48,798 bases of DNA, from positions 1-48,798 of the forward strand of contig VGEB01000010.1 of NCBI GenBank assembly GCA_016869435.1, written 5' to 3'. Source of the DNA: Alphaproteobacteria bacterium. Lineage in GTDB: Bacteria > Pseudomonadota > Alphaproteobacteria > Rhizobiales > Beijerinckiaceae. The notes beneath the pieces are model-generated. The model saw nothing but the letters and a program-made list of their open reading frames with translations, made no database searches and had not been told where the DNA came from. Of this stretch, positions 20,306 through 43,882 are shown piece after piece (position 1 is the first letter of the stretch; every line of letters begins with the position of its first letter). A program made the translations under genes and the position numbers.

Positions 20306-22600
20306 TCACTCGATCACGATCCTCACCGCGCGCGACGCGACAGGCGCGAGGGCGAGGCGCGCCTGAATGCGATGCCGGCCGGGCGTCATCGGCCAGAATA
20401 CGGTCTCGTTCGCCTGCGCCGTCGCGAAAGGCTCGCCGTCGATCGTCCAGACGATCTGCGAATCTGCGCCTGACGGCGCGAGTTTCAACGCCAGTCGGTT
20501 GAGGCGCTCCGGCTGCTCCGGGTTTCGCCAGATATGCGTGTTGTGTTCCGGCGTCGCGATGACGAGCGGCGTGGCGCCGTCCGCGTGAGAATAGGAAGCG
20601 TCATCCGCACTCGACCGCTGAGCGGGACCCGCGCGCAAGTCTTGAGCCTCGCGCGCTTCAGCCGGCTTCACCCATTCGCGCAGGGTTTGCGCGCAGTCGC
20701 CTTCGTCGCCGGCGCGGCAGAGATCGATGGCGATTCGTCCCGGCGGCGGGGCGAATGTTTCGGGCGCGATCTCGCCGGGCTTGGAATCATGCAGTTTCGC
20801 GAGCACGGCATGGGCAAGCCGGGCCGCTGACGACACGCCGGTCATCGCGCGCATGGCGCCGGCGTCGCCGCGCCCGATCCACACGCCGACAATGAATTTA
20901 TGCGAGAAGGCGATCGTCCAGGCGTCGCGATAGGCTTGCGACGTTCCGGTCTTCACGGCGACCGCGAAGGGATATTCGAGCGGTCCGTAGCGTGGAAATG
21001 AGGGCAGGCGCGCCTGCGGGTCGGCGAGCATCGAAGCCACGAGCCGCGCACTGTCGACCGACAAGACGCGTCGCGGCGGCCGACGCGGTCCGTCGCGCGT
21101 GAAAGCAAGCTCGCGCAGGAGTCCATCGTCCGCGAGCGCGGCATAGGCGCGCATCACATCCTCAAGCCGCGTCGGCAGCGCGCCGATCGCCATCGAAATT
21201 CCGAAACTCTCCGCCGGCGTTTCGAGATCGTGCAGCCCGAGGTCTCGCAGAAAATTGAAATTCGCCTCGAGTCCGACGCGCCGCAGCAGATTGGTCGCCG
21301 GCACATTGCGTGAATTGGCGAGCGCCTGCCGCGGCGTCAGCGGCCCGAGATAGAGTCCGTCGGCGTTCGAGACGCCCGACGCGCCTTCGGGAATGTCGTT
21401 CACTAGGTCCGTCGTCTTGAGAACGCCGCGTTCGAAGGCCAGCGCATAGATGAAAGGCTTCAAGGTCGAGCCGGGAGAGCGCCGCACGCGGGTGAAATCG
21501 AAGGCGCCAGCCTGCGGGTCGCTATAGTCTGAGGAGCCGACATCAGCGATGACGGCGTTCGTTCCGCGTTCGACCACCATCACCGCGACCTGCCGTGCGC
21601 CGCGGCTGCGGAAATTGGCAAGATAGCGGCGGGCGAGATGCAGGACGTCGCGTTCGATCTCCATATCGATCGTGGCGTTGATGCGCCGATCATCATCCGC
21701 GGCGGGCCGCGCCAATCCTTCGCGCGCGAGCGCCTCGTAACGCAAAGCGAGATGCAGCGTCTCCGGACGATGCTTGGCGTCGAGCGGGCGCATATGATCG
21801 AGCTCTGCGCGGGCCAACGCCGCCTGCGCGGCGTCGAGCGCGCCTTCCGCTTCGAGCCTGGCGATGGCGTGACGCGCGCGCGCCGTCGCCAATGCGAGGC
21901 CGCTCTCGCGCGCGATGTTCATCCGCCCCGGCGATTGTGGGATGGCGGCGAGCAGCGCCGCCTGCGCCCAAGAAAGGTCGTCGACCGGTCTGTCGAAATA
22001 TAAGCGCGCGGCGTAGGCGACGCCATGCCCGTTCAGCCCATAGGGCGCGAGCCGCAGATAATGCGCGAGCGTCGCTTCATGGCCGTGGCGCGCGACGATG
22101 GCGAGCGCCGTCGCCGCCTGCATCATTTTTTCGCCAAAGCTGCGCGGCCTTTCGGTCTGCATCCGCGCGACCTGCATCGCGATCGTCGAAGCGCCTTCGC
22201 GTCTGCCGCGCGATGTGAGATTGCGCCATGCGGCGCGCACGAGCGCGGTTATGTCGACGCCGGAATGAGAAAAAAAACGGCGATCTTCGAGCGCAAGAGT
22301 CGCGCGCGCAATTTTTTGCGGGATGGCCGGCAGAGGCCAATAGCCGTAATCGACGCGAGGGCTTCTGGTCTTGGGATCAAAAGACTTGTCGCCGATCTGA
22401 GTGAGGAAGGCGCCGTTGCGGTCGTAAACGATGGCGCTGGCGCGCGGGGAGATAAGGTCGGCGCGCGACAGCGCCTCCTGCGAGATCCAGCCGGCGAAGG
22501 CGATGAGCGCCGCAATGAGAACAACAAAGATGCAGCTCGCGAAGCCTCTCCCGCGCGCGGGAGAGGTGGCGCATCGGCGCAGGGTCGCGCCAGCAGTCAT
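20306..22600 (-). CDS. pbpC: Penicillin-binding protein 1C
   Basis: A bifunctional class A enzyme of 764 residues: one N-terminal membrane span (22-40), GT51 glycosyltransferase with catalytic Glu105 in LALEDRRFFSHSGVD and the EGASTIAMQVAR motif, then transpeptidase with Ser378/Lys381 in SPGSTLKPF, the SRN motif in ALANSRNVPATNLL and AVKTGTSQAYRDAW. The C-terminal 90 residues match the BiPBP_C beta domain. PbpC works with alpha-2-macroglobulin, which precedes it here by a TAATG overlap (coupled translation). A perfect 22-base palindrome (22545-22566) lies inside the first 20 codons. Confidence 0.95.
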   Translation of the reverse strand: MTAGATLRRCATSPARGRGFASCIFVVLIAALIAFAGWISQEALSRADLISPRASAIVYDRNGAFLTQIGDKSFDPKTRSPRVDYGYWPLPAIPQKIARATLALEDRRFFSHSGVDITALVRAAWRNLTSRGRREGASTIAMQVARMQTERPRSFGEKMMQAATALAIVARHGHEATLAHYLRLAPYGLNGHGVAYAARLYFDRPVDDLSWAQAALLAAIPQSPGRMNIARESGLALATARARHAIARLEAEGALDAAQAALARAELDHMRPLDAKHRPETLHLALRYEALAREGLARPAADDDRRINATIDMEIERDVLHLARRYLANFRSRGARQVAVMVVERGTNAVIADVGSSDYSDPQAGAFDFTRVRRSPGSTLKPFIYALAFERGVLKTTDLVNDIPEGASGVSNADGLYLGPLTPRQALANSRNVPATNLLRRVGLEANFNFLRDLGLHDLETPAESFGISMAIGALPTRLEDVMRAYAALADDGLLRELAFTRDGPRRPPRRVLSVDSARLVASMLADPQARLPSFPRYGPLEYPFAVAVKTGTSQAYRDAWTIAFSHKFIVGVWIGRGDAGAMRAMTGVSSAARLAHAVLAKLHDSKPGEIAPETFAPPPGRIAIDLCRAGDEGDCAQTLREWVKPAEAREAQDLRAGPAQRSSADDASYSHADGATPLVIATPEHNTHIWRNPEQPERLNRLALKLAPSGADSQIVWTIDGEPFATAQANETVFWPMTPGRHRIQARLALAPVASRAVRIVIE
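22545..22566. repeat. Perfect 22-base palindrome inside the pbpC 5' coding region
   Basis: CCTCTCCCGCG followed directly by CGCGGGAGAGG. The arms match the CCTCTCCCGC arm of the intergenic repeat at 6539-6562. On the message it would fold 35-55 bases after the start codon and it encodes part of the cytoplasmic tail (SPARGRG). Confidence 0.75.
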
Positions 22601-25600
22601 TATTTCCCAATCTCCACGCTCGCGCCGGCGCTCGTCGCGCGAAGGCCTTTCTTATACATCGCCTCAACAAGGGCCGGCGGTTGCGTATAGACGCCCGCCG
22701 TCTGCGCGCGCAGGCGGAAGGCGAAGCGATAGGTTCCCTTCGGCAGCGAATCATAAGCGTAGAACACGCGGTCGTCGCCGAAAGAAACCCAGCTTGGCTG
22801 CAGCGTCGGCGCGAATGAAGGCTGCGCTTCGGCGGGCGCCGTGGCGATATTGGGATTGAGCGGCTCATAGCCGGCGGCGAGCGGGATCGAGATTGCGATA
22901 TGGGTGCGATCCTCGGGATTGACCACTTCCGCGGTCTCCTCGATCACATCGCCTTGCTTCACCTGCAGGATGCCCGCCTTGAGTTCAAACTTTTCGGGCG
23001 CCTTGCCGCTTTCGACGCGCCAGCTCTGCCTGGCGATCGCAAAGCCGTCGCTCGTCGGCTGGGCTTTGGCGCCAGGTTCGGCCGGCATGTAGTCTGTCTC
23101 GATCATCGCGACGAGCGGCGCATTGGAGCCATTGACGATTTTCAGCGGCGCGTCGTTCTTCGACACATGCCGGGCGACCGGCGCATTGGCGTCAAGCGTC
23201 GACGCTTGATCCTTTCCGCCGTCGTTGAAACTCACGGCGATCGGCGCGGCAGGGCGCCGCCAGCCTTCGGCGAGGGCTTCGATTGCGGCAGCGTTGGCGT
23301 TGGTCGTGCCCCAGCCGTCGCCGTCGCCAAGCCGCAGCAGCGCGTCGCGCAGCGCATTGGCGCGCGGATCGCCCGAGGCCGTCAGCGCCGCTGCGCGCGT
23401 CATTTCCGCGATGCTGCGCGTTTCCGAAGGCAGAATGATCGGCGAGGCGCTCTCGGCCGCCTGTCCCGCATAAACCTGCACGCCGTTGCGGCTGGCGAAT
23501 TTCACCCGGCTCCACATCGTATCGATGAGCGCCGCGAGCGCGCGCTGATCGACATTGGGGAGATGCGCGGAGGCGGACGCCATTTGCGCGACGCTGATAT
23601 TGGGCAAAAAGTCGGCGCGGCGCGCAAATTCGGCGACGTAGGATTCGTCGAGCTTGCCGCCTTCGGCGAGCGCCGACAGCGCTTCGACGCGCTCGCGCAA
23701 TTCCTCGCCGGAAAGCAGTCGCGGATAATCGGAACGTAGCGACAGTTTCAATATATTGGCGAGACGATCGAGAAGCGTCTTGTCGATCGGTTCTCCCGCG
23801 CGCTCAGCCCGCGCCAGAAAATCATAGGCCCAGGCGGTCAGCGAGACCGTGCCGCGCCCGCGCGGCCAGAAGGCGACGAGTCCGTCGGCGTCGATCGACT
23901 GATCGATGATCTGCGCCGTCGATCTCACATTGGCTGAAACGCGATCCTCAAGCCCCGCCGCCGCGAGAATCGGCCCGAAACTTTTCAGCGCCAGTCCGCC
24001 GCGCGCGAGCGACAGGCGTTGCTCGGTGCAGCCATAGGGATATTCGACGAGCGCATTCAATCCAGCAACGAGCTTCACGAGCGACGGATCGGCGGCGACG
24101 ACCGTCTCGCGCCTGAAGCTGCCGGGCCGCGACTGCTCGCCAGAAGGCGCGATCGTCCTGGTTTCGCCCGGCGCGATCTCGACCAGCTCGAAGCGTCGCG
24201 TCACCTCGCGGTCCTCCTTCACCGGCAGGGCGATCTCAACGGCGTCTTTCGCATGGTCGGCGTCGCGCTCGATGCGGAAGCCGAGCGTCGCTTCGCCCGA
24301 AAGCTCGGTGGGCGCAGCGGCGCGCAAATCGATGCGCACCGGCTTGTTCTGCGTCCATTCGATCTTGCGGCTTGCTTCGCCCGAAAGCGTCAGCGCCCGC
24401 GCCGAGATCGACGCCTTGCCAGCGCCGCCCGGCCCTTCGACGACGCGTGCGACAAGGCCGATGTCGAAGCTATCGCCCGGCCGAATGAAACGCGGCAGCG
24501 CCGGCTGCGCGACGAGCGCCTGCCGGATCAGCATTTCGCCGCCGGAGGCGCCGAAACGATCGGGCCCGCTCACCGCCTTGGCGCGCAGCTTGAACACGGT
24601 CAGCGTATCAGGCAGCTGCACTTTGATTTTGGCGACGCCGTCGGGGCCGATCTTCACGCTCGGCAGATAGATCGGCACCGGCGTGAAGTTTTTGCGTACG
24701 GAAATATTGTTCTCCGCGCCCCATTCCTGCAGTTCGTCGCCGTCGCCGCCGGCGATCTCCTCCAGCGGAATGACGCCAAAGGCCATGTTGCGCGTATCGC
24801 GCGCCGCCATTTTCGTTTCGCGCTCGACAATAAAGTCGGGCAAGGGATCGAGTGGCCGTTCCTTGGCAAGCGACAGCACCGCCTGATCGACCATCCAGAA
24901 GGTCGCTTCGCCCGAAAGAGGTTTGCCGGCGTCGTCGGAAAGCCGCAGCGCCACCTCGATCGCCTCGCCAGGGCGCGCCTTTGAAGGATGTTCGAGCTTC
25001 ACATTGACGATGTTCTTGACCGGCGTCACCTCGATCCATTTCGTCGCCGCGATGGTGACGGGTTTGCCCTGGTCGAAAGTCGCGGTCGGCTGCGGCGGCG
25101 CATCCTTCAGACGTCCGCGCATGATCAGGAAATGCACGGCGAGCTTGGGCGTCTGCTCTTTCTTGACCGATAGCGCATAGCGCCCGAAGCCGTTGGCGAT
25201 GTCGACAAATTCATAGTCATAGACGCCGCTCGGCTGTTCGACGATGGCGAGCGCGCGCGCGTTCTGAAACGGAGATTGGATGATGAGAGTCGCCGTTTCG
25301 CCCGGCGCATATTTGTCCTTGTCGGTCGTGATCGTCGCGGATTCGGCCGGCGGCCGCGCGAAGGTGACGGGCGTGTCGCCGCCGACAAAAAAGTCGACGC
25401 TCACCTGTTGCCGACGCTTGAGTCTGTCATAGGCCTCGAGCTGCACAAGATAGACGCCGGCGTCGCGCGCCGCGAGTTCGATCTTCTGCGCGTCCTTGGC
25501 GCTCGTCACCTTGCGCTCGATCAGGACTTCGTCCTGCGCCTGGGTGACATATTTAGCGGCGCCTTGCGCAAAGTCGGAGGCCTGTAGCGTCGAAATCCAG

Positions 25601-28428
25601 TTGCGCTTGATGAGCCGCAGCGTCATCTCCAGGCCGACGACTGCGTCGCCTTTGCCGTCGATGGCGATGAGCTCCGGCGTAACGACGCTCGGACGCTCCA
25701 CATACCGTGGCGTCTTGACGCCGAGCACGAAGGGCGGCAGCGCGATGACGTTCTGCACATTGCGCACTTCGACGCCATCGTCGCCCGTCACCGTCGCTTC
25801 GATGGAGTAGCGGCGCGGCTGCGCCGTCGGCTCGATCGTCGTGTCGAAGGTCATGCGCGCGGCGCCGCCGGCGTCGGTGCGCTGATCACGCTCGAGCACC
25901 GCCGTCGACTTGAATTTGCCGTCGCCAGAAAAGCGCGCGTCGGTTGAAAACAGAAAGCCTTCGCGGCCGGGCGGCGTGAACACATGCGGAAATTGCGCCG
26001 CGCGCCATTTGACCGGACGATCCGCCGCAAGCCCGCCGGCGAAATAGCGGGCGAGGAGATCGACGTCGAAAGTTCCGTCGAGCGCCACGGTCTGCGGGGC
26101 ATTGAGAACGACTTCGAAAGTCGGCAGGCGGTAGGCTTCTTTCTTGAACGAGAACTGTCCGCAGGAATTATCCTCAGCGGCTTCGACCGCTTCGCTCTCT
26201 CCCTCGGCGACTTCTTCCGTTTCGTCCTTTTGCGCCTCGGTCTTCTTCAGTTTTTTCGGCGCATCAGGTTCGAACCTTGCCGAATAGTCGCCGGTCGCCT
26301 GAGTTTGCGCGTCGAATTTGTGATAGAAGCCGCCGCTCGCGTCGAGCTTCACCGGTATGCGCCATTCCTGATTGCCGGGGCCGGTGACGACAAGCGTCCC
26401 GCCGGTCTTGGTCAGGCTCAGCGCGCCGCCGCGATGGCTGCGCACGAAGCCCTTGATATGCGCGCTTTCCTCGGGCCGGTAGATCGGCCGCTCGGAAAAG
26501 AGATGGCAGAGGGTGCGTGGCTTTTCGGCGCGCGGCTGGTCGGCTTCGCTCGTCCAGGCGAGCCATTCCGATTCCGGCTTCGACCAGATTTCGCGCGAAT
26601 ATTCCGAAGGCGCGCTATTGGGGTCGATGACCAGCGTATCGAGCCCCTTATTCACGACGATGCGTCGCGCTTCGGCTCCGCCGCGCTTGTCGGGCGTCCA
26701 GGAATAGAAGCCGGAAGCGTCGGTGGTTCCGCTCGCAAGCGTGACGAATTTTTCGTCCTTGATTCCTTCAATGCGGATTTGGGCATTGCCGACAGGCTGC
26801 GTCGTCGCGAGCGAGGTGACGGCGAATCGCACCCGCGTCGGCTCTTCGATCGCCGACAGCGAAAGATCGGTGATCTGCACGCGCAGCCAGCGGCGCTTGT
26901 CATCATCGACGGCGCGAAGGCCGACGAGATAGGTTCCCGGCTGATCGCGTCCGGCGATTTTGGCGAAATCCTCCTTAAGATCGACGCCGAATTTCGCGTC
27001 AGGGCCATTGCGGCGGATCGGCAGATCGACGAGCCGCGACACAGCGGGCGACCCCAGCGACTTGATGCGCTCCTTGATCGCGTCAGCCTCGATGTTCGCG
27101 GTCTCGCTCCAGGACTTCGGCTCGTTGCCTGGCAAGGGCGGGGCGTCGGAATCGCTGGTTTCGACGCCATGTGCGGGGAAGGGGAAGAAATTTCGCGACA
27201 GCGGATCGATGGCGTGGATGCGGATATCGGCGCGGTCATAGCCGCGACCGCGCAGCGGCAGGAGCTGTGGCCCGAGCCGTTCGGCGACCCCATAGCCCGC
27301 ATCCCACTGCAGCGCCGGCGCATCGCGGGTGAAGGCGAAACGCTGAGAGAAAGCGCTCGCGAGCGCACGCCCTTGAGAATCTTTCAGCGCGCCTTGAGCG
27401 ATCGAAAGTTCGTAGACCTGATCCGACAGGAACTTCGCAACGATGCGGAGGCGCCTGCCGTCGGTCTCGACGGAAAGATCGTCGACAGGCGGCGTGATCC
27501 GCAGCGCCTCGCGCGCGCGAAGAATGTCGAGCGTCTCGGGCGTCGCGTTGAAGGAGAGCGCGAGCAGCCGCTTGCTCGCCGGCGCATAGGGGATGGCGGC
27601 GGAATCGCCTTCTTCTTCGCTGCTTTCGGGCGACATGAGATAGGAGGCGCAGCGCAGCACGTTTTCGGCGCGGTCGTCGCTCCAGCCGCGCCCGCAGCTC
27701 GCCTCCGTCGCCGCGAACGGCGGCGCGGTACGCAGCCGCAATTCATATGTCTGATCGTCGAGACCGGCTTCGTCGGACAGGCGCAGCCGCAGGATCGCGA
27801 CGCGGCCGTCGGCGATTCTCTCGCGGAAGCGAATGACATAGGTCTGATCCGCGGCGCGCGCGTCGCGCTCCAGCGCGCGAATCTCATAGGCCGAGGCGCT
27901 GAGCATTTGGCCGCGTTGCGGCGAAACGCCCGGCGCCGGCCGAATCTCGATCGAGAGCAGCCGCGCCAATGCGCCGACGTCGACCGGCTCGGCGAAAGTG
28001 AGGGCGATCTGCGTCAGTTCGAGCTGCGGATCGGCGCCCTCGGTAGGTTGAGTCGAGCGCGGCGTCGGCAGCAGCGCCACGAGTTTGGTTTCCGCAGCGC
28101 CGAGCTTGACGCTCACCCGCGACAGCGGCTTCCAGGCGTCGGCGGGACGAAACTGCAGCGCGCGCGGACCGAGCCAGCGCCATTCGCCGGCGGGCTGCGG
28201 ACTCATCGTCACATATTTTTGCGGCGAGTCCTCCGCGCCCCCGTTTTTCGGTCCGAGTTCGTTCGGGAAGAAGACAGTCACCGGATCATAGGCGCGCAGG
28301 AATCGATCGGGCGTGACGCGCGCGCCGTCGGCGCGTTGCGCGCGGTCGAAGATCGGCGGAGCTTCGGCGCGCAGCGGCGCCCCCGCGGCCAGGAGCGCGC
28401 ATAAAGTGAGAAGCAGAAGTTTCTTCAT
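22600..28428 (-). CDS. Bacterial alpha-2-macroglobulin (YfhM-like)
   Basis: A very large periplasmic protein, 1,942 residues, against about 1,650 for E. coli YfhM. It is thought to trap attacking proteases: cleavage of a bait segment exposes an internal thioester that binds the protease covalently. The thioester motif is intact: GCTEQ with Cys1467. Preceding it are repeated macroglobulin beta domains (including HLFSERPIYRPEE and SFKKEAYRLPTFEV), and Cys pairs such as CGRGWSDDRAENVLRC look like disulfides. The signal peptide MKKLLLLTLCALLAAGAPLRAEA has no lipobox, so unlike YfhM it is probably soluble. ATG 28428 has AAGG seven bases upstream. A Glu-rich stretch lies near residue 740. It sits between the giant protein gene (16 bases) and pbpC (overlap). 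Confidence 0.95.
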   Translation of the reverse strand: MKKLLLLTLCALLAAGAPLRAEAPPIFDRAQRADGARVTPDRFLRAYDPVTVFFPNELGPKNGGAEDSPQKYVTMSPQPAGEWRWLGPRALQFRPADAWKPLSRVSVKLGAAETKLVALLPTPRSTQPTEGADPQLELTQIALTFAEPVDVGALARLLSIEIRPAPGVSPQRGQMLSASAYEIRALERDARAADQTYVIRFRERIADGRVAILRLRLSDEAGLDDQTYELRLRTAPPFAATEASCGRGWSDDRAENVLRCASYLMSPESSEEEGDSAAIPYAPASKRLLALSFNATPETLDILRAREALRITPPVDDLSVETDGRRLRIVAKFLSDQVYELSIAQGALKDSQGRALASAFSQRFAFTRDAPALQWDAGYGVAERLGPQLLPLRGRGYDRADIRIHAIDPLSRNFFPFPAHGVETSDSDAPPLPGNEPKSWSETANIEADAIKERIKSLGSPAVSRLVDLPIRRNGPDAKFGVDLKEDFAKIAGRDQPGTYLVGLRAVDDDKRRWLRVQITDLSLSAIEEPTRVRFAVTSLATTQPVGNAQIRIEGIKDEKFVTLASGTTDASGFYSWTPDKRGGAEARRIVVNKGLDTLVIDPNSAPSEYSREIWSKPESEWLAWTSEADQPRAEKPRTLCHLFSERPIYRPEESAHIKGFVRSHRGGALSLTKTGGTLVVTGPGNQEWRIPVKLDASGGFYHKFDAQTQATGDYSARFEPDAPKKLKKTEAQKDETEEVAEGESEAVEAAEDNSCGQFSFKKEAYRLPTFEVVLNAPQTVALDGTFDVDLLARYFAGGLAADRPVKWRAAQFPHVFTPPGREGFLFSTDARFSGDGKFKSTAVLERDQRTDAGGAARMTFDTTIEPTAQPRRYSIEATVTGDDGVEVRNVQNVIALPPFVLGVKTPRYVERPSVVTPELIAIDGKGDAVVGLEMTLRLIKRNWISTLQASDFAQGAAKYVTQAQDEVLIERKVTSAKDAQKIELAARDAGVYLVQLEAYDRLKRRQQVSVDFFVGGDTPVTFARPPAESATITTDKDKYAPGETATLIIQSPFQNARALAIVEQPSGVYDYEFVDIANGFGRYALSVKKEQTPKLAVHFLIMRGRLKDAPPQPTATFDQGKPVTIAATKWIEVTPVKNIVNVKLEHPSKARPGEAIEVALRLSDDAGKPLSGEATFWMVDQAVLSLAKERPLDPLPDFIVERETKMAARDTRNMAFGVIPLEEIAGGDGDELQEWGAENNISVRKNFTPVPIYLPSVKIGPDGVAKIKVQLPDTLTVFKLRAKAVSGPDRFGASGGEMLIRQALVAQPALPRFIRPGDSFDIGLVARVVEGPGGAGKASISARALTLSGEASRKIEWTQNKPVRIDLRAAAPTELSGEATLGFRIERDADHAKDAVEIALPVKEDREVTRRFELVEIAPGETRTIAPSGEQSRPGSFRRETVVAADPSLVKLVAGLNALVEYPYGCTEQRLSLARGGLALKSFGPILAAAGLEDRVSANVRSTAQIIDQSIDADGLVAFWPRGRGTVSLTAWAYDFLARAERAGEPIDKTLLDRLANILKLSLRSDYPRLLSGEELRERVEALSALAEGGKLDESYVAEFARRADFLPNISVAQMASASAHLPNVDQRALAALIDTMWSRVKFASRNGVQVYAGQAAESASPIILPSETRSIAEMTRAAALTASGDPRANALRDALLRLGDGDGWGTTNANAAAIEALAEGWRRPAAPIAVSFNDGGKDQASTLDANAPVARHVSKNDAPLKIVNGSNAPLVAMIETDYMPAEPGAKAQPTSDGFAIARQSWRVESGKAPEKFELKAGILQVKQGDVIEETAEVVNPEDRTHIAISIPLAAGYEPLNPNIATAPAEAQPSFAPTLQPSWVSFGDDRVFYAYDSLPKGTYRFAFRLRAQTAGVYTQPPALVEAMYKKGLRATSAGASVEIGK

Positions 28429-28444
28429 CGCCGCGCCTTTCAAG

Positions 28445-31400
28445 TCATTGCGCCTTGCTTTTCTTCATGCCGGCCTTGTCGAGCAGCTCCGCGACGATTT
28501 CCGCCGGCGGCGCGTTCACAGGCGGCGACAGTCCGACGATCGCCGCGCGGATCGTCGTCGCCGGCGCGTCGGCGGGCGTTCGCGCCTCAAGGAAATAGCG
28601 GCCGGGCGAAAGCTTCATCGTCTGCGCGACGCCTTCGCCGAGCGGCTTGCCTTGCGCATCGATAAGCCGCGCTTGGACGCGGTCGGGCTCGGCGCGCAGG
28701 CCGAGTCCGACCTCGCGCGGTTCCTTGACCTCGAAGGTGAAAATTGCGCTCGCGCCGGGCGAAACCGCCACCGCATCGTTCACGCCTTCATGCGCCTCGA
28801 CGACGGGCTGCGTCGAAATATCGAGCGCGCCGGACAGAGTCCCCTCATAGGGCGCGAAAATGTCGAGCGTCGCTTCGCCCGGCGTCATGTAGCGATAAAG
28901 ATCGACGCCATTGGCGAAGGCGAGCGTCTCGCGCCTGCCGTTCTGCGTGAAACCGACGATCGCCGGCGCGTCGCCGCTCGCTTTCAACAGCGCCGGCTTG
29001 TCACTCTTGATCGTATAGCGCGTCGCTGCGCCTTCCAGCGCCACGCGCTGCGGCAGATTGAGCGCGCGCGCCGCGGGCGCGGGCCAGGGCGACGCGCCGC
29101 CGCGCTCGATCCAAAAAGCGACGAGGCCGGGGCCGTGATCGATGATCGCTTCGCCCGCGCCGTCGAGCGCAATAGTGTCGCCGCGCGCGATCCGGCCGCT
29201 GTTCGATATCACCGTCGCCTTTGCGCCGCTGACGATGAGCCTGTCGTTCTTCTGCGCGTCGAGCGGAAGCGACATCTGACCCGCAGCCGGGAAGAAGCGC
29301 GTGAAGGCCCGCGTCGCGTCGAGCCGCCGGCTTTCGCCAGTCTCGCGCGCGATGCGCGCCGGCAGCGGCGCTTGCGTCAGATTGACCAGAAGCACGCGCG
29401 ATTTGACGCCGTGCAGAAGGCGCGACATGGCGGCGCCGTCGCCGAAGACGACGCGCGGCTGCGCAAAGGCGGCGAGTCCGCCTGCGAGGTCGAGCGCGAG
29501 AGGCCCGGCGGCTTCATCCATATCGACAGGCTGCGCGGTCATCGGCGGGATCATCCCCGAGAACAGCGCGCCGCCTTTCACAGCCGGCCGCGTCTCGACG
29601 TCGATGGCGTTCAGCGCGACCCGCATTGGCGCGACGCCTTCCGCATTCCAAAGGTCAAGTGGCGAATCTCCAGCGAGCGTCAGCGCCGCCCCCTTCGCCA
29701 CGCCGACGCCGAGTCCGCCATCAAGCGCCGGCTGCGCGAAGGCGGAGCGCGCGAGCCACAGGCGCCGCTTCCCGGCGGGCGGCGCAAAAGGAACGACATG
29801 GGCGCGCTCGCCTTCGCCGATGTCGAGTGAAATTTCGGCGCCTTTCCAGTCGAAGGCGGCGACGCCGATGCGCGAGGCGCAGTCGCCGCGGCGCAACAGC
29901 CACAAATTCTGCGTTTGCGGCGCAAGCGTTCCGGCGCGCGCGGTGTGCAACAAAGTTCCGGGTGTCGAGCCGGCGGCTATCTCTTCCTGCGTAATGAGCG
30001 TCACCAGCGAAGCGTCAGGCGTCGCGACCTTGGCGATGCAGACGCCGGCGAGTCCGTCGATCTGATCAAAGCGGACGTCGCCCAGCTGGCGCGCGCGGCC
30101 TTCGGCGGCCCGTGCGGCAAGCGTGATCGGCGCATCGCCGCCGCCGATCGACCAAACGACGACGCGCAGTTCGCTATCGCTGGCCGCCGGCCACGCGGTG
30201 ACAGGCGCTGGGCCGCGCTCGACGCCGATCGCGCGCCATTGGCCGTCGGGGTCGCGACGTTCGATCGATATGGCGACGTCGCCTTCCGAGCGCGCCGCGA
30301 CGAGCGCCAGATTTCCAGCCGGCGCGGGCGCGAGGGCAAGGACATGCGCGCCGGCGCCGCTCAGCGTCTTCTCGCCCGATAGCGTCAACGCGCCGTCATC
30401 CTTCTCCTCAGGCAGCGACAGGCGCAGCTCGACGCCGGTCAGCGGCGTTTCGTCATTCGCCCCCGCCTCTTCTTCATTGGAGCTCTCTTCGTCATTGGAC
30501 GCTTCTTCGGTCTCTTCGCTCGTCGCTTCTTGGGTCTGCGCCGGCGGGCTCGGTTCGGCGCCGAGTCGTTCAAGTTCGATGCGGTAATGCCCGGCGGGCA
30601 GGCGCCGCGACAGAGCGACATTCCAGTCGTCGCCGCGCGGCTGCAGACGTTCGATCACGTCGCCCTTGTCGTCTTTCAGCGCGCCGATAGTTTCAGTGTC
30701 GCCGAAGCTCGAAAGATCGACGATGCTGTCCTTCGCCAGCGAAAGGTCGAGGCGCGTCGGCGGTTCGACGATGCGCGGCGCGTCGGGCTGCAACTCTTGC
30801 GAGTCGAGCGAAATCTCATAGTCGAGACGATCGTCATGGGCGAGGCTGCGCGCCTCGACCCGATAGTCGCCCGCGGTCAGCTTCGACTTGAACGGCCTGT
30901 CCGAAGCGACCTTGCCGATACTTTCCTTTTCGCCTTTGAAAATCTCGCCGACCATGCCCTCGCCGATCGATAGATCGATGTCGGAATCGCCGTAGAGCGA
31001 GAAGCGCCACTGGTCCGGCGCGCGCGGCGCGTCGCGCGCCTGCGGCTCGCGCCATTGCAGGCGCTGGGCTTTACCGAAGGGCAGGGGATGCGGACCATGG
31101 CCTTCGAGCGCCTTCGCCGCGACAACGGGCGTCAAGCGCGCCGTCATGCGCGCTTCGACATCCTTCGGCATGACGACCAGCCGATAGGCGCCCTTTTCGA
31201 ATCTCCGCGTGAGCCGCTGCATTTCGTCAGGCGCCGCCAGCGGCCAGCCGTCGGCGTCCTCCAATCTCGCGCGCCATTTCTGCTTCAGGCCGAGAAGCTC
31301 GATGCGATATTCGCCGTCGCTCGTGATCTCAATCGGCACGACCGCGCCCTTGCCTGGATCAAGCGTCGCGCGCGCAATGCCCGTATCGACGAGTTTCGCC

Positions 31401-33565
31401 GTCGACGCGAGAGTCGCGGGCGAGACGGCGAGTCCGAGATGTCCGGAGGAGTCTTTGGCCGTTACGGCGGCGCGATAGCCGCCGGCGCGCAGAAAGGCGG
31501 TGACCAGGGCGTTGGCGCCGGGACCATTCGCTTCGCCTTCGCCGAGTCGCGGCGAGACATTCGCGCCGACGCGCAGCGCGGTCTTCATGCGCCCCAGCGT
31601 TTCAACCCTGTAGAGTCCGCCCTGCGCGACATCGAAGCGCAGCCGCTTCGTCTCGTCGCGCGCAAGATCGAAAAAGGCCGGATGCGCGACCGAGGCGGAA
31701 AGCGCCGCCGGCGCCGGCTTGCCCGCGTCTTCGGGCTTCGGGGGCGTGGTTTCCGGAACGAAGATGAGCCCGAGCGCGCGCGATTTTTCCGCCGCGGCGA
31801 TTCTTATTGTGGCGAGACGCTGCTCGTTTTCTTCTCTCTGTTCGGCGAGCGTCAGCGCGACATCGGCGCCATGCGCATCGCGCGCAATCGCTTTGCCGGT
31901 TTTAGGAAGCCGCACCGGCAGCGCAATCTCCTTGCCGCTGTCCTGCCAGATCGCCAATGGCGCCTTGTCGAGTTCGACGGGAAGCGCGACGACGCGCGGT
32001 CCGGTCAAAAGTTGCGGCGCGACATTCGACAGAATGAGATACGAGCCGTCCTTTTCCAGCGTTTGCGTCCCGAAGGACATCGTTTGGCGCGAAGGCGACG
32101 GCGTCGGCGCCGCCGCCGAGAGTCCGGGCGGGCCGAGCGTCACGTCGATGACGCCGCCGGAATCGCCCTTCGGCGCGAGCTTGAGAAAATAATAGCCCGC
32201 CTGGAGATCGTAGCGTGTTGAGTCTTTGCCGTCGGCGCGGGCCGCAAGCGCGCCAAGCGCCGGCTCGATCGAGGCGTCGACCTTCACCCCTTTGGCGTCA
32301 ATCGCTACAGGCCCGTCGCGCGTCGCTTCGAAGAGGATCGACGTCGGCCCGAACAGGTTGAATTTGGCGCGCCACGCTTTTCCCGCGCCGATGCGCGGCG
32401 CATCGGAAGCAATGACGCGCGTCTTGCCGTCCTTTTCGATGCGCGCGAAGAGCGCGGTCGCCGGCGGGTCATCGCCCCCGTCGCCGGCGATGTCGAGTCC
32501 GACGAGATGCGGTCCCGACGCCTCGAATGTTTCGCGGTCCGACTGACGCAGGCCGCGCAACGTGAACGGCTGGCCCTCAAAGCCTGAGACTTCAAGACGC
32601 GCGTTGGTCTTGCCGTCCGCGGCGAGTCTGACGTTCGCCGAAGGCGCGCGGCTGTTCTTCGAGATCGTCGCGATCTCTCTCGAACCGTTGCGCCGCGCTT
32701 CGAGCCGCGCTGGAATCGTCTGCGCAAGGTCGAGACGGAAAGCGTCATAGCTTGCCGGCGCGTCGAAACGTTCGGCGCCGAAGGGGCCGATCACGCCCTC
32801 GGCGACGCCAGCGGCCAGCAGGGCGGGCTCGTCAAGCCGCAGCATGAACGGCTGCGCGGCGTCGCCTTGCGCCCAGACGAGTTTCTCGCCGCCATAGGCG
32901 GTGACGACATAGCGGCCGGGCTCCAGCGCGCCTTCGAGACGCAGCCGGTTCATGGCGCGACCAGGCTTGGTTTCAACAGTTTCCTGCTCGAAGGCGAGAT
33001 CGACGAGTTCGCCGTCGCCGCGCCAGACCCGCAGATCGTTCAGCGCGCGGCCGATCGCTTCGAGGTTCGCGCGACCTTCCGCGCCAACCTCGAAGGCAAA
33101 GGAGCGCTGCTGCAGATCGCCGAGTTCGCCGCTTTGAATGCGTCCCGGCGCGAGCGTCGGCTTTGAGGCGTCGACATCGATGAATGGCTGCGCGGAGAAC
33201 GCGATCTTCCCACTTGCGCCTTTGACGCCGGAAACCCGCAGCTTGTAGACGCCCTTGTCGAGCAGCGCGTCGATTCTACCGTCGCGCAGTCCCGGCGCGC
33301 CGCTCGAATCGAGCGGGCCGGCGATCATGTCGACGAGTTCGATGCGCGCGCCCGAGGGACTCTTGGCGCGGATCGAATAGCGGCCCGGCGCGGGAATCGT
33401 CAGAAGACTCGCGCCGTCTCGATCCGCCGGCAGTTCGCTTGGCGCAAAGCTGATCGACGATTGTTTGGCTTTGGTTTCGGCGAGGGCGCCCTGCGTCGCG
33501 CGCAATAAGGGTTGCGCAAAATAGGCGGCGCCGGCGACGAGAAGAGAGAATGCGATCCGCCGCAT
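28445..33565 (-). CDS. Giant exported repeat protein linked to alpha-2-macroglobulin/PbpC
   Basis: A 1,706-residue protein I cannot assign to a named family. It begins with a signal peptide (MRRIAFSLLVAGAAYFAQPL); the open frame reaches 33688 but earlier codons look non-coding. At least twelve segments share a G-x-Y-x-(V/L/I) beta pattern, for example GRYSIRA (61), GVYKLRV (105), GRYVVTA (217), GYYFLKL (457), GLYRVET (650), GEYRIEL (751), GAYRLVV (792), GDYRVEA (899), GHYRIEL (992) and GRYFLEA (1655). That resembles pre-peptidase C-terminal (PPC)-type beta sandwiches. A 28-residue acidic Glu/Ser linker lies at about 1014-1041. Only two cysteines (1176, 1229) occur, suggesting one disulfide. 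The gene precedes alpha-2-macroglobulin by 16 bases and is probably the first gene of that operon, so a scaffold or partner role in the periplasm is likely but unproven. Confidence 0.85.
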   Translation of the reverse strand: MRRIAFSLLVAGAAYFAQPLLRATQGALAETKAKQSSISFAPSELPADRDGASLLTIPAPGRYSIRAKSPSGARIELVDMIAGPLDSSGAPGLRDGRIDALLDKGVYKLRVSGVKGASGKIAFSAQPFIDVDASKPTLAPGRIQSGELGDLQQRSFAFEVGAEGRANLEAIGRALNDLRVWRGDGELVDLAFEQETVETKPGRAMNRLRLEGALEPGRYVVTAYGGEKLVWAQGDAAQPFMLRLDEPALLAAGVAEGVIGPFGAERFDAPASYDAFRLDLAQTIPARLEARRNGSREIATISKNSRAPSANVRLAADGKTNARLEVSGFEGQPFTLRGLRQSDRETFEASGPHLVGLDIAGDGGDDPPATALFARIEKDGKTRVIASDAPRIGAGKAWRAKFNLFGPTSILFEATRDGPVAIDAKGVKVDASIEPALGALAARADGKDSTRYDLQAGYYFLKLAPKGDSGGVIDVTLGPPGLSAAAPTPSPSRQTMSFGTQTLEKDGSYLILSNVAPQLLTGPRVVALPVELDKAPLAIWQDSGKEIALPVRLPKTGKAIARDAHGADVALTLAEQREENEQRLATIRIAAAEKSRALGLIFVPETTPPKPEDAGKPAPAALSASVAHPAFFDLARDETKRLRFDVAQGGLYRVETLGRMKTALRVGANVSPRLGEGEANGPGANALVTAFLRAGGYRAAVTAKDSSGHLGLAVSPATLASTAKLVDTGIARATLDPGKGAVVPIEITSDGEYRIELLGLKQKWRARLEDADGWPLAAPDEMQRLTRRFEKGAYRLVVMPKDVEARMTARLTPVVAAKALEGHGPHPLPFGKAQRLQWREPQARDAPRAPDQWRFSLYGDSDIDLSIGEGMVGEIFKGEKESIGKVASDRPFKSKLTAGDYRVEARSLAHDDRLDYEISLDSQELQPDAPRIVEPPTRLDLSLAKDSIVDLSSFGDTETIGALKDDKGDVIERLQPRGDDWNVALSRRLPAGHYRIELERLGAEPSPPAQTQEATSEETEEASNDEESSNEEEAGANDETPLTGVELRLSLPEEKDDGALTLSGEKTLSGAGAHVLALAPAPAGNLALVAARSEGDVAISIERRDPDGQWRAIGVERGPAPVTAWPAASDSELRVVVWSIGGGDAPITLAARAAEGRARQLGDVRFDQIDGLAGVCIAKVATPDASLVTLITQEEIAAGSTPGTLLHTARAGTLAPQTQNLWLLRRGDCASRIGVAAFDWKGAEISLDIGEGERAHVVPFAPPAGKRRLWLARSAFAQPALDGGLGVGVAKGAALTLAGDSPLDLWNAEGVAPMRVALNAIDVETRPAVKGGALFSGMIPPMTAQPVDMDEAAGPLALDLAGGLAAFAQPRVVFGDGAAMSRLLHGVKSRVLLVNLTQAPLPARIARETGESRRLDATRAFTRFFPAAGQMSLPLDAQKNDRLIVSGAKATVISNSGRIARGDTIALDGAGEAIIDHGPGLVAFWIERGGASPWPAPAARALNLPQRVALEGAATRYTIKSDKPALLKASGDAPAIVGFTQNGRRETLAFANGVDLYRYMTPGEATLDIFAPYEGTLSGALDISTQPVVEAHEGVNDAVAVSPGASAIFTFEVKEPREVGLGLRAEPDRVQARLIDAQGKPLGEGVAQTMKLSPGRYFLEARTPADAPATTIRAAIVGLSPPVNAPPAEIVAELLDKAGMKKSKAQ

Positions 33566-33803
33566 GAGCGCTCTATACGCCAGCCGGCGATTTGATGGAA
33601 ATGGAGCGCCGCTCTTGATTTTCAGCACGGGCCGCGCCCCTCGACTGAGTCGAGAGCCGAGCGCCTTTCGCGACGACGCTATCATCATGCCGCTTTCTCA
33701 CGCGCTTATTTAGCCGACCCCAGTTGGAGGCGGCGGGATTATCTTTTAGGCTAGCGACTGCGCCCGGGGATTTGCGCGAGCGCACAGCAACCGGAATGTC
33801 GGC

Positions 33804-34196
33804 ATGCGTCGGTCATTGTTTGCCATGGTGCTCTTTTCTGCGGTCTTATGTGGTGAGGAGGCGGCTGCGATCAAGCTGACGCTCGCCTATCCGGCGGTGC
33901 TGCGCGCGGGTCCCGAGGAACATTATGCGGCGATCGGGACAGCGCCGGCGGGCACTGAGGTCAAGATCCTACGCGACGATCCAAGCTGGACGCGCATCGC
34001 CATCGACAACAGACGATATTTCGTCGCGACGCTCGAGCTGGTGTTCATGTCGTCGCGGGTGACGGAAACGTCCGGCTGCGATTTCGGCTATCCCTATTCG
34101 GGCAGCACGCAATATTTCGCCTGGCCGTTGACGGAATTGCGCCACAGCGAGCCGTTGGGCTCGCTGCTCGGCTATCACAACCGGTTTCCCTGCTAG
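33804..34196 (+). CDS. Secreted SH3-like (SH3b) domain protein
   Basis: A 130-residue exported protein: signal peptide 1-22 (MRRSLFAMVLFSAVLCGEEAAA), then a bacterial SH3 domain (about 25-82) with VLRAGPEEHYAAIGTAPAGTEVKIL and WTRIAIDNRRYFVATLELV. A short tail carries Cys92 and ends in Cys130, which could form a disulfide. SH3b domains often bind peptidoglycan or metals. ATG 33804 has GGAA eight bases upstream. It is divergent from the giant exported-protein gene across a 238-base promoter region and convergent with the lytic transglycosylase, so the context is cell wall. Confidence 0.8.
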   Translation: MRRSLFAMVLFSAVLCGEEAAAIKLTLAYPAVLRAGPEEHYAAIGTAPAGTEVKILRDDPSWTRIAIDNRRYFVATLELVFMSSRVTETSGCDFGYPYSGSTQYFAWPLTELRHSEPLGSLLGYHNRFPC

Positions 34197-34241: not shown

Positions 34242-36485
34242 TTATAGGCCGGCGCGTGCGAGTTCGACCTGAGGCGGCCGCGTCGCCTTGTCCTCGAATT
34301 TCGCGCGATAGACGACGAAATTCTCCATTACCCGCTGCACATAATTGCGTGTTTCCGTGATCGGAATCCGCTCGACCCAGTCGATCGGATCGATATGGGG
34401 CTTGCGCGGATCGCCATAGGCGTCGATCCACTGCTTGACGCGTCCGCCGCCGGCGTTGTAGGCGGCGAATGTCAGCAAATAGGCGCCGCGATATTCGCCG
34501 AGCAGAATGCCGAGATGCGCTGCGCCCAGTTGGGCGTTGAAGGGCGGATCTTTAAGCATCCGCGAAATGTCGAAGCTCACGCCCCGCATAGAGGCGGTGT
34601 GCCGCGCCGTCGAGGCGATCATCTGCATCAGGCCCATGGCGCCGGCGGAAGAAACCGCCCTCGGATCGAAGGCGCTTTCCTGACGCGCAACGGCGAAGAC
34701 GATCGAGCGCGACGCCGAGCCCGGAAGGGCGTCGAAGTCCGGAACCCCATAGGCCGGGAAAGCGACGTCGTCGAGCGCGATCCCGCGATAGGACGCCGCC
34801 TTGCCGTAAACGAGCGAGAGCTTGGCGTCGCCCTGGCGGGCGATGATCTCGCCAAGCGCCGCGACCTGCGCCTCCACTCGCAAATATTTGGCGCTGTCGA
34901 GTGCGAGCGACGCCGCCACCTCCTTCTCTCCGAGGGCGAACAACAGCTCAGCGACTCGAACCGCTTCCTCCCGCTTGTCGCCGGACGCGGCCTGCGGCGG
35001 CGGGCGAAGCGGGCGATCCTCGGCGCCCAGCCGGGCGCCGGCCAGTTGCCCGTAGAAGGTCGTCGAATGCGTCGCCGCCTGCAGATAGAAATTATGCGCC
35101 CTTGCGTCGTTCTCGACTTCCGCCGTGCGGCCCAGCCAATACAATGCGCGAGATTTCTGCAGCGGCGTTTCGGCGATCTCTCCAAGTGTCTTAAAATGGC
35201 GCTCGGCCTTGATCGGATCCTTGAGGAACCGAAGGGCGATCCAGCCGGCGTTGAATTCCGCGTCGACCTTGTTGCTGGTCTTTACCGCCGCATGCTGTGC
35301 GCAAAGGATATAGGCGGTTTCGGCGTCGCCCTGATCGAGCAGCTTGCGCGCCACGATGCGCCGTTCTTCCCACCAGACGTCGCCGTCGACGACCTGTTCG
35401 ATGTCACGCGGGGCCTTGCGCAGCAGCGCGCCCGCTTCGGCGAATTTGTTGGCTGTGCGCAGCTTGTGCACGCGCCCGTAAAGCAGCCCCGGATCGTTTT
35501 GCACGGACGGCGGCAACGCCGCCGCCAATTTATCGACGCCGGACATGCGCGCGCGGGCGAGCAGCACGACGTCCTTGCCGGCGAGTTCGGCGCTGCGCAA
35601 GGCGAGCGAGCTCTTCCCCGCATAGAGCAGGCGGTCGGCGCGGAATTTGTGATCGGCCGGCGCCAGAAGCTCGCCGAGCTCCTTATTGAAGATCGAATCG
35701 AACCCCTGTCCGATATCCTCATTGCGCCAGGCGTCGCGCGCCAAAGCCGCCGCCGACTCGAAATCGCCTTCGCGCGCGATGACGCGCGCCAAAGCATATT
35801 TCCCATAGGCGGTGAGCGGCTTTGTTTCGGCGAACCAGGCCAATACGACTTTGTCGGGCTGATGCTCGGCGACGAGCGCCTGCTCGCCGCGACGGCGCAG
35901 CCAGTCCGCGGCGGGCCAGGTCGGATGGGCCGCCATGAACGCGGCGATGCGGTTGAAGCCGGCTTCGTGCGGATGAAGCCGCAGGCCGACCCAGCGGGCC
36001 GCGGCGGCGGCCAGCGGCGCCTGCGCGCGCGACGCGGCGTCGTCGCCATGAACGAAATCGCCGGCCTTATAAGCCGCGACCGCCTGGATGAAGGCGTCCG
36101 CGTCCTCGCCGAGCAGAGATCGAGCGGATTCAGCGAGCGTGTTGGCGCCATCGAGCCGGCGCGCTGTCGGAGCGTTCGCAACGATCGGCGGCAGCGCGCC
36201 GTCCTCGCCGCTGAACAGCGAATTCCCAAGAGGATGCGCCGCCTCATTGTCTGGGTCTGCGCGGTCGAGATCGATGAGCTGGTGGACGGCCTCCTGCAAG
36301 GAGCCGACCCGGGAACGCCAGGCGCCGAGACTTAAAGGAACCGAGGGCGTCCACCGCCAGGCTGAGCGTCGCGCCTCGCCGTCGCCAAGACGGTCAAAAC
36401 CGGTGAAAGCCGGCGCGGCGATCAGCAGGGCTGTGACGCCGACAGTGAGTTTGAACCGGGTCGCAACGCGTCGAGGCAACATCAT
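34242..36485 (-). CDS. Soluble lytic murein transglycosylase
   Basis: Cleaves the glycan strands of peptidoglycan to 1,6-anhydro products; about 747 residues, as for Slt70. A signal/anchor segment covers residues 10-30, a long alpha-helical superhelix (U/L domains) 60-560, and the catalytic SLT domain about 580-720. The catalytic Glu is in ARQESAFDPRAVSSAGAMGLMQ and the fold-closing motifs are TFAAYNAGGGRVKQW and ITETRNYVQRVMEN. An AAGGA site precedes GTG 36488 and ATG 36485; either may be the start. It may remove damaged wall in concert with PbpC further along the same strand, but 0.7 kb and another gene separate them. Confidence 0.95.
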   Translation of the reverse strand: MMLPRRVATRFKLTVGVTALLIAAPAFTGFDRLGDGEARRSAWRWTPSVPLSLGAWRSRVGSLQEAVHQLIDLDRADPDNEAAHPLGNSLFSGEDGALPPIVANAPTARRLDGANTLAESARSLLGEDADAFIQAVAAYKAGDFVHGDDAASRAQAPLAAAAARWVGLRLHPHEAGFNRIAAFMAAHPTWPAADWLRRRGEQALVAEHQPDKVVLAWFAETKPLTAYGKYALARVIAREGDFESAAALARDAWRNEDIGQGFDSIFNKELGELLAPADHKFRADRLLYAGKSSLALRSAELAGKDVVLLARARMSGVDKLAAALPPSVQNDPGLLYGRVHKLRTANKFAEAGALLRKAPRDIEQVVDGDVWWEERRIVARKLLDQGDAETAYILCAQHAAVKTSNKVDAEFNAGWIALRFLKDPIKAERHFKTLGEIAETPLQKSRALYWLGRTAEVENDARAHNFYLQAATHSTTFYGQLAGARLGAEDRPLRPPPQAASGDKREEAVRVAELLFALGEKEVAASLALDSAKYLRVEAQVAALGEIIARQGDAKLSLVYGKAASYRGIALDDVAFPAYGVPDFDALPGSASRSIVFAVARQESAFDPRAVSSAGAMGLMQMIASTARHTASMRGVSFDISRMLKDPPFNAQLGAAHLGILLGEYRGAYLLTFAAYNAGGGRVKQWIDAYGDPRKPHIDPIDWVERIPITETRNYVQRVMENFVVYRAKFEDKATRPPQVELARAGL

Positions 36486-36689
36486 CACCGTATGTCCTTA
36501 CTGGCGTGAAAAAGCTGCTCTCACTTGGTTTACGAAGCATCAACTTCGTGCGCCGCCTACGAATTCGATCTCTCCCGCTCCACCCATAGCGTAGGGCTTT
36601 CCTCGACGCGGCCCAGCGGCTATGAAGGGCGCCTCAATCTTAGCGACGCAATTACGGCGGCTCTGGGGCGTACGGAAGGCTCTGATTCA

Positions 36690-42974: not shown

Positions 42975-43406
42975 TCAACGCCACCGAAAAAGCTTGAGCA
43001 ACGCCGGGTCGATATAGCTCCAACTCGCGGCCGCCAGCGCAATCGCCGAAGCGCAGAGCAGTAGAGCGAGCATTGAACGAGAGCGCTCTGGGGACGCGCA
43101 GTTCGCCTTTGAGGCGCATATCACGGGGCGTTTCATCCACCATGCGCTCCATCCTCCGCTAATCGCCAAGGCGCTCGCAGCGAGTAGCGGGACGCGCCAC
43201 GCGGCGATCAATTCAAGGCCGCCAAAAACGCCTGCGCCCGCGCCGAGCGCTGCGAGCCCCAGCGGTATGACACAGCACGACGACGCCACGACCGCGCCGA
43301 GGCCGGCGACGAGTCCAAAAGCGGCGAACCAATTCGATGAGGCAGGGACGGCAGGCGGAGCCGAAGCCGCTGGTGTTTTTTTTTGCGCGGCGTCATTGAC
43401 GGTCAT
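42975..43406 (-). CDS. merT: Mercuric ion transport protein MerT
   Basis: An inner-membrane Hg(II) importer, 143 residues, with three hydrophobic segments (about 28-58, 68-90, 112-132). The two defining Cys pairs are present: Cys44-Cys45 in VVASSCCVIPLG within the first span, and Cys97 and Cys103 (ICASKANCAS) in the loop after the second. The N-terminal 25 residues are Ala/Pro-rich and unusual. ATG 43406 has AAGG seven bases upstream. It is divergent from a frameshifted merR, and no merA or merP is present in the window, so its role in resistance is unclear. Confidence 0.88.
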   Translation of the reverse strand: MTVNDAAQKKTPAASAPPAVPASSNWFAAFGLVAGLGAVVASSCCVIPLGLAALGAGAGVFGGLELIAAWRVPLLAASALAISGGWSAWWMKRPVICASKANCASPERSRSMLALLLCASAIALAAASWSYIDPALLKLFRWR

Positions 43407-43442
43407 GGTTTGCCCTTTCTTGACATGGTGGCTATCGTGCAC

Positions 43443-43475: not shown

Positions 43476-43882
43476 ATGCAGTCCTTGACGATTGGGCGGC
43501 TTGCCGAGGCGGCGGGCGTCAATCTGGAGACGGTGCGTATTACGAGCGCATCAGGCTAATGCCGTCGCCTGCGCGGACGGCAAGCGGGCATCGCGTCTAT
43601 GAAGAGGGCCACATCCGACGGCTGACGTTCATCCGTCGTGGCCGCGAGCTTGGGTTCGGCATCGAGCAAATTCGCGCTCTCTTGGGCCTCGCCGAGCCGT
43701 CCCGCGCCTCTTGCGCGGAGGTGAGAGAGATCGCGCGAACGCATCTCGACGAGGTGCGGACGAAGCTCGCTGATCTCGTTAGGCTTGAGGGCATTCTCGC
43801 CGCGACAATCGCCCAATGTTCGGGCGATGCCGCGCCCTCATGTCCTGTGCTCGACATGCTAACGGACTCGGCGCGCGTATAG
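43476..43882 (+). pseudogene. merR: Frameshifted MerR (mercury-responsive regulator)
   Basis: From ATG 43476 the frame reads MQSLTIGRLAEAAGVNLETV, a perfect MerR winged-helix start, then hits a stop at 43558-43560. Restoring one base after 43537 (in the Arg codon before TATTAC) yields YYERIRLMPSPA and an intact rest of 135 residues. The three mercury ligands are all there in the repaired protein: Cys80, Cys115 and Cys123 (SCAEV, QCSGD, SCPVL). So the regulator was complete until one base was lost, or the base is missing through a read error. An internal ATG at 43559 would give only the part lacking most of the DNA-binding domain. Confidence 0.85.

Follow-up and report, generated by a model that had tools for sequence, protein, structure and literature searches.

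A gene for a 1706-residue repeat protein, here termed REP, precedes genes for a Type I alpha-2-macroglobulin (A2M) and the penicillin-binding protein PbpC in an alphaproteobacterium of the Beijerinckiaceae (GenBank assembly GCA_016869435.1, genome of 3.16 Mb), and on sequence matches it accompanies a single A2M subfamily. The window, meaning the whole stretch of DNA that was analysed, consists of 48,798 nucleotides of contig VGEB01000010.1. The interpretation favoured here, tentatively and with a confidence just short of calling it probable, is that REP serves that one Type I A2M subfamily as its dedicated partner in the periplasm, within an envelope-defence module. The observations behind it are the gene order, the co-inheritance of the genes, the repeats within REP, the predicted fold of one of them (unit i) and an LprI domain in relatives of the protein. 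Other genomes, genera and loci are cited by handles beginning with G, g and L, respectively.

The REP gene (28445..33565, minus strand) is the first of the operon. It lies within an open frame at 28445-33688. The ATG at 33565, where matches to orthologues of similar length begin as well, was taken as the start and opens a stretch resembling a signal peptide by eye and hydropathy (approximately residues 1-30; 33476..33565, minus strand). A gap of 16 bases (28429..28444, minus strand) separates its stop from the start of the A2M gene (22600..28428, minus strand), assigned from Pfam and motif matches, the product of which has a signal-like start, no lipobox pattern, a CTEQ thioester motif (24019-24030, minus strand) and matches to the Pfam models bMG10, A2M_BRD, MG2 and A2M, each above its cut-off. 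The stop codon of this gene overlaps the ATG of pbpC (20306..22600, minus strand) in the sequence TAATG; the encoded penicillin-binding protein 1C (PBP1C) carries transglycosylase/transpeptidase and BiPBP_C domains according to Pfam, and scores 453.5 bits with the NCBIfam PBP_1c model, below its cut-off of 494.2. Coordinates and Pfam neighbours therefore agree with an earlier, sequence-only reading of the window, which had described a third large, exported-looking protein leading an A2M/PbpC operon across a 16-base gap.

The distribution of REP was surveyed in 298 genomes of family f1, which we take to be the GTDB Beijerinckiaceae, using a 17-member profile for REP and searching for A2M in the same genomes; since at most two candidates were scored per genome in the profile searches, absences of REP are not proof. 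A search with the single protein had found REP in 29 of 61 relatives, all within the genus of the window genome, and 11 of 13 named loci with REP are labelled Methylocystis, the other two bearing higher names only; the window gene is itself treated as one of Methylocystis. The profile found REP in 45 of the 298 genomes, spread over 8 of 43 genera. A2M matches occur in 98 genomes: 46 contain the close subfamily (55-100% identity), and the other 52 divergent proteins only (identity at most 39%, mostly around 25%; in G466 and G531 as short weak pieces only). All 45 REP genomes possess the close A2M subfamily, and in G568, the sole genome with a close A2M and no REP match, the A2M lies at the beginning of a contig. 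No REP match was found in any of the 52 genomes with divergent A2M only, nor in any of the eight divergent-A2M loci fetched. By coordinates, 43 of the 45 genomes have REP and A2M side by side on the same strand, with aligned parts at most 212 bases apart; adjacency in G514 is shown by an A2M piece, bringing the directly adjacent total to 44, and the corresponding distance in G580 is 739 bases. The homologues are thus not mostly away from A2M genes, and the link to A2M advanced in the sequence-only reading is real, although the limit to one A2M subfamily had escaped it. The 52 REP-negative genomes include species of g32 (G588 and G610) and g169 (G590) whose sister species have REP-linked A2Ms, as if one macroglobulin system had replaced the other.

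In two order-wide profile samples the matches were confined to the window genome and G009 (2 of 397; 2 of 347), and a class-wide sample gave 5 of 337, namely the window genome, three members of other families (G880, G843 and G762) and G1029. Both G880 and G843 encode REP, A2M and pbpC in order, with REP 32-33% identical to that of the window; the REP of G762 is in three pieces and its contig stops at REP. The match in G1029 spans 63 positions (E 1.4e-4) and is not a full REP, with no A2M or pbpC match within 16 kb.

Judged from these loci, REP belongs with A2M more than with pbpC. The latter gene was found in the approximately 3 kb downstream of A2M in 17 of 20 REP-positive genomes examined; in the exceptions, G556, G580 and G006, a close pbpC (63-65%) lies elsewhere and REP is still beside A2M. 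Within the first sets of loci, comprising the 13 named ones and 11 others, pbpC follows A2M in 11 and 10, respectively, and the other three loci run into a contig end. No REP or A2M match was obtained from G002, G007 and G033, Methylocystis genomes with a completeness of at least 92%, and their best pbpC match is at most 38%; the whole module seems to be gone from them, given that REP, A2M and a close pbpC are unmatched together. As a separate observation, a gene for a small heat-shock-like protein, identified by sequence only, stands after A2M in the place of pbpC in G580 (L104 13786-14307, plus strand).

The REP sequence is enriched in short beta motifs. There are 11 copies of strict G-x-Y-x-[VLI], against a mean of 0.48 and a maximum of 4 in 2000 shuffles, and 13 of the wider G-x-[YF]-x-[VLIA], against a mean of 2.6 and a maximum of 8, so the repeated motif noted previously stands, but not the count of 'at least twelve' G-x-Y-x-(V/L/I) units. 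A list of units was compiled through profile comparison of hand-set segments, with matches between overlapping segments discarded. Five units of approximately 90 residues are firmly linked (probability of at least 82%): unit h (residues 627-718; 31412..31687) matches unit i (726-816; 31118..31390) at 86%, unit j (838-923; 30797..31054) matches r and k at 82.5% each, unit k (926-1004; 30554..30790) matches j at 82.5%, and the C-terminal unit r (1592-1681; 28523..28792) matches i at 95% and was also recovered by an unbiased scan. Weaker links join unit b (138-248; 32822..33154) to h, at 74%, and unit de (395-481; 32123..32383) to i, at 48%, all seven lying on the minus strand. The unbiased profile scan gave matches above 25% in three of 25 scanning windows (residues 690-820, 1535-1665 and 1600-1706), with a match partner also covering approximately residues 895-1020. 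Profile matching hence indicates five to seven related units rather than twelve; the remaining beta-rich stretches may be more diverged copies.

Other features of the protein conform to the sequence-only reading, which had listed one acidic linker (found at approximately residues 1009-1040; 30446..30541, minus strand), variable in length among orthologues, and only two cysteines, C1176 and C1229, bounding a stretch at 29879..30040 (minus strand). Of 17 aligned members, 11 have the two cysteines and six have neither, and this joint presence or absence suggests that they form a disulphide. The C-terminal tail (28448..28525, minus strand) is conserved in alignments, with a PP...PP...LL/YLE/DKAG-like pattern, and no lipobox was seen in REP sequences read by eye.

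The window REP matched zero families in Pfam and had one sub-threshold domain match only in NCBIfam (E 0.061), and nothing significant was found among PDB sequences with either the single protein (best E 2.4) or the 17-member profile (best E 0.15). The 17-member alignment matched no Pfam family over the repeats, and the Pfam PPC model matched none of the 17 members at E values up to 10. An AlphaFold prediction for residues 30-1003, made with 11 close sequences, reached a mean pLDDT of 40 and was not used as evidence. For unit i, a model built from an alignment of 65 unit fragments (pLDDT 81.1, pTM 0.71) predicts an eight-stranded beta sandwich resembling PPC, GOLD and PliG domains. Comparison with the PDB through Foldseek gave a best E of approximately 1e-3, with no match below E 0.001. 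The best matches are jelly-roll-like sandwiches, among them GOLD domains, Tk-SP (TM 0.72-0.76), the collagen-binding domains of ColG and ColH (TM 0.65-0.74), the PPC domain of a Bacillus anthracis collagenase (5sv5; TM 0.71, rmsd 2.6) and the periplasmic g-type lysozyme inhibitor PliG (4dzg; TM 0.71). The likeness to PPC and collagen-binding domains is thus one of shape (TM 0.71-0.74 to 5sv5, 1nqd_A and 3jqw_C), whereas identities are 13-15% and REP has no Pfam protease domain; PliG, unlike REP, is a single small domain, 5% identical to unit i. Among viral predicted structures, the single match under 0.001 was a Halobacterium phage transmembrane domain protein. The REP repeat would therefore be PPC-type in fold, as modelled, and not in sequence, and the PPC-type sandwich suggested previously survives in the former sense alone. 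Similarly, the earlier remark that no named family could be recognised is correct for the window protein as far as Pfam and the PDB are concerned, but not for several relatives carrying the Pfam family PF07007 (LprI).

A shared origin of REP and A2M was considered and rejected: profile-profile comparison with A2M/MG domains gave a probability of 0.5% (E 0.12), with 20 separate segments all at or below 7.7%. REP also contains no CxEQ, its two cysteines being found in CIAK and CASR. The proposal that REP is a second, A2M-like trap is disfavoured by this lack of homology.

The LprI domain, overlooked in the sequence-only reading, lies directly after the signal-like start of REP relatives and in frame with their repeats. 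It scores above the cut-off in genera g29, g170, g172 and g165 of the family and in G762, from another family, and just misses it in G880, from another family (21.5 against 22). Fifteen N-termini were scanned, with nine above the cut-off (L079, L080, L081, L082, L103, L108, L109, L110 and L111), one just below (L101) and none found in the other five (L083, L085, L102, L106 and L112); LprI was not apparent by eye, from the sequence as read, at the N-termini of L107 and L113-L116. Three members of the 17-member alignment have the domain (L080, L081 and L082) and none of its eight Methylocystis members does; the window REP likewise has no Pfam match to LprI. The REPs of g169 bear a short cysteine-containing stretch where LprI sits elsewhere, which looks like a remnant of it. 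Occurrence in separate families suggests that LprI may have been ancestral in REP and lost several times. A single stand-alone LprI gene occurs in the window genome, on a different contig from the operon, and three of ten further REP genomes scanned (G006, G580 and G843) are without any LprI match. Compared with Mycobacterium tuberculosis LprI and Salmonella ScwA, REP relatives share the domain in five genera above the cut-off and a sixth just under it, but differ through the addition of approximately 1700 residues of repeats and the lack of a Pfam MliC match, while the window REP lacks LprI itself. In G762, REP is preceded by two genes (L103 5560-7666, minus strand), one for a protein with an OmpA domain and a probable coiled coil, the other for a MotA/ExbB-like protein scoring below the cut-off; together they are reminiscent of motor or channel complexes attached to the wall.

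The window operon is similar to that of Escherichia coli ECAM, presumably encoded by yfhM, and PBP1C, in that a gene for a thioester A2M is followed by pbpC and the window A2M has bait-region and MG domains and CTEQ; it differs in the third, equally large protein encoded before A2M and in the absence of a lipobox from the window A2M. ECAM is described as carrying a lipobox (PMC3328433). Bacterial A2Ms are reported to occur either beside PBP1C, as Type I, or in a six-gene operon, as Type II, represented by MagD (PMC3328433, PMC5764988). Pseudomonas aeruginosa MagD is reported to bind MagA, MagB and MagF, with MagB required for its stability and membrane location (PMC5764988); it is described as being without a thioester, and the mag operon as set apart from the PBP1C type (PMC5764988). 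The arrangement in the window is comparable in that a macroglobulin would be co-encoded with a dedicated binding protein, such binding being only proposed for REP, and unlike it in the thioester and the number of genes. A third conserved protein accompanying Type I A2M and PBP1C is not described in the titles and abstract openings searched, most subscription papers being outside their reach. The closest published remark found concerns large PAN-domain proteins associated with A2M domains in root-nodule bacteria (PMC4653623).

CTEQ is present in 12 of 13 REP-linked A2Ms tabulated, including that of the window, the thirteenth (L034) having been translated in a wrong frame. The 12 in-frame proteins, some of whose starts are uncertain, have no lipobox pattern within their N-terminal 120 residues. 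Besides the thioester cysteine, the REP-linked A2Ms share cysteines 245, 260, 641 and 756 (numbered on the 1942-residue protein encoded at 22603-28428, minus strand), which are invariant in an eight-member alignment; the tabulated divergent A2Ms show a different cysteine pattern.

As the favoured reading would have it, REP is secreted to the periplasm, there forming a chain largely of PPC/GOLD-like beta-sandwich domains, and may act as a long scaffold that binds the soluble A2M and keeps it at or near the cell wall. A2M would trap invading proteases via its thioester, PBP1C would rebuild peptidoglycan, and the LprI domain of relatives would be an arm, since lost from Methylocystis and from certain other genera, that inhibits or controls wall-cleaving enzymes. 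REP is read here as a Type I counterpart of the Mag partners that bind MagD. The stronger version, in which all three proteins form one complex, a three-part immune module of A2M trap, REP scaffold with an ancestral LprI arm and PBP1C that counters both proteases and hydrolases, is regarded as doubtful.

Several results weigh against the favoured reading. The REP-A2M complex at its centre is one that we infer. Distances between REPs and between A2Ms are strongly correlated (r = 0.96 over 55 pairs and 0.97 over 45 pairs, the latter comparison leaving out L080), but this alone proves little, as operon neighbours are co-inherited and pbpC correlates nearly as well (REP-pbpC r = 0.96 and A2M-pbpC r = 0.95 over the 45 pairs); REP also diverges faster than A2M, with a mean distance of 0.57 against 0.42. 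Some REPs are split or shortened in assemblies (G025, G029, G034, G514 and G762), that of G514 missing approximately residues 1057-1604. The PPC-like fold is generic, Foldseek also giving a Yersinia mitogen, enterotoxin C-terminal domains and CBM6. The highest internal hydropathy over 19 residues is 1.46 in the window REP and reaches 1.66-1.88 in five of 13 REPs, whereby REP may contact the membrane. Finally, five tabulated divergent A2Ms, which have no REP, are also without a lipobox, the starts of two (L087 and L088) being uncertain; an A2M without a lipid anchor thus does not require REP, and the idea that REP stands in for such an anchor is weakened.

An alternative that we hold to be unlikely is that REP itself inhibits lysozyme or other peptidoglycan hydrolases, via LprI and/or its PPC/PliG-like units, without being bound to A2M. 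This would account for the presence of PF07007, named 'Lysozyme inhibitor LprI', at ten of the 15 N-termini scanned, nine of them above the cut-off, and would suit an operon partner that makes peptidoglycan; PliG is also among the fold matches of unit i, although it is one of many and shares little identity. However, Methylocystis REPs lack LprI, and the fusion-less G006, G580 and G843, having no LprI match of any kind, indicate that another copy does not always compensate for its loss. The motif SG-x(1,2)-Y, presumably tied to lysozyme inhibitors, occurs in none of the 17 REP members. Salmonella ScwA, which contains an LprI domain, is reported not to inhibit lysozyme, its authors proposing regulation of endogenous wall enzymes instead, and the MliC domain of M. 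tuberculosis LprI is said to be the proven inhibitory part (PMC7933661).

Alternatively, REP might be a large protein with a structural, adhesive or surface role that is merely co-regulated with its neighbours, its units binding wall or matrix polymers or acting as a protease decoy. The nearest folds, including collagen-binding domains and the PPC domains of secreted proteases, are compatible with such a role, as is the faster divergence of REP than of its neighbours. Confinement to one A2M subfamily is nevertheless a stronger tie than shared regulation alone predicts, gene order is the same in three families of Alphaproteobacteria and the REP-A2M pair persists where pbpC is elsewhere, making this explanation rather improbable. 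The same persistence of REP beside A2M, in the three genomes with a displaced pbpC, counts against REP as a regulator of PBP1C that would span the periplasm and switch on wall repair as LpoA and LpoB do for PBP1A and PBP1B, and no lipobox is visible in REP by eye; this seems very unlikely, even though pbpC follows A2M in most loci and a close pbpC has disappeared along with REP and A2M from three genomes. PBP1A and PBP1B are reported to have cognate outer-membrane lipoprotein cofactors, and PBP1C to have no known role in standard conditions (PMC7554673), both of which would fit a regulatory role.

Elsewhere in the window, a gene for a soluble lytic transglycosylase (SLT domain; 34242-36488, minus strand) lies upstream of REP, with dapA beyond it in divergent orientation. 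Among the 13 named Methylocystis-group loci, SLT is found upstream of REP in ten and dapA in nine; L031 and L033 have approximately 3 kb upstream of REP without SLT, and L043 starts within REP. Between REP and SLT is a small divergent gene (33804-34196, plus strand) whose product begins with a signal-like stretch and matches the bacterial SH3 domain at 26.5 bits, against a Pfam cut-off of 27. Further away, a MerT-like protein gene (42975-43442, minus strand; 29.3 bits against a cut-off of 32.9) and a divergent MerR-type regulator gene (43559-43882, plus strand) are possibly a mercury-response pair. A large antisense frame at 28313-29830 is without a Pfam match and is regarded as a shadow frame. 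Searched at gathering scores, Rfam had no match in 18000-38500; between 20000 and 37000, a promoter scan found zero sites (shuffles mean 2.0) and a terminator scan 12 candidates against a shuffle mean of 18.4.

The known two-part A2M-PBP1C defence pair therefore looks three-part in some bacteria. The REP-A2M pair is found in free-living methanotrophs and their relatives, and REP offers a concrete handle on the role of Type I bacterial macroglobulins outside animal hosts and on the reason for their PBP1C neighbour. The fusion of LprI to REP relatives hints that the module may also have to face a second threat, from peptidoglycan hydrolases.

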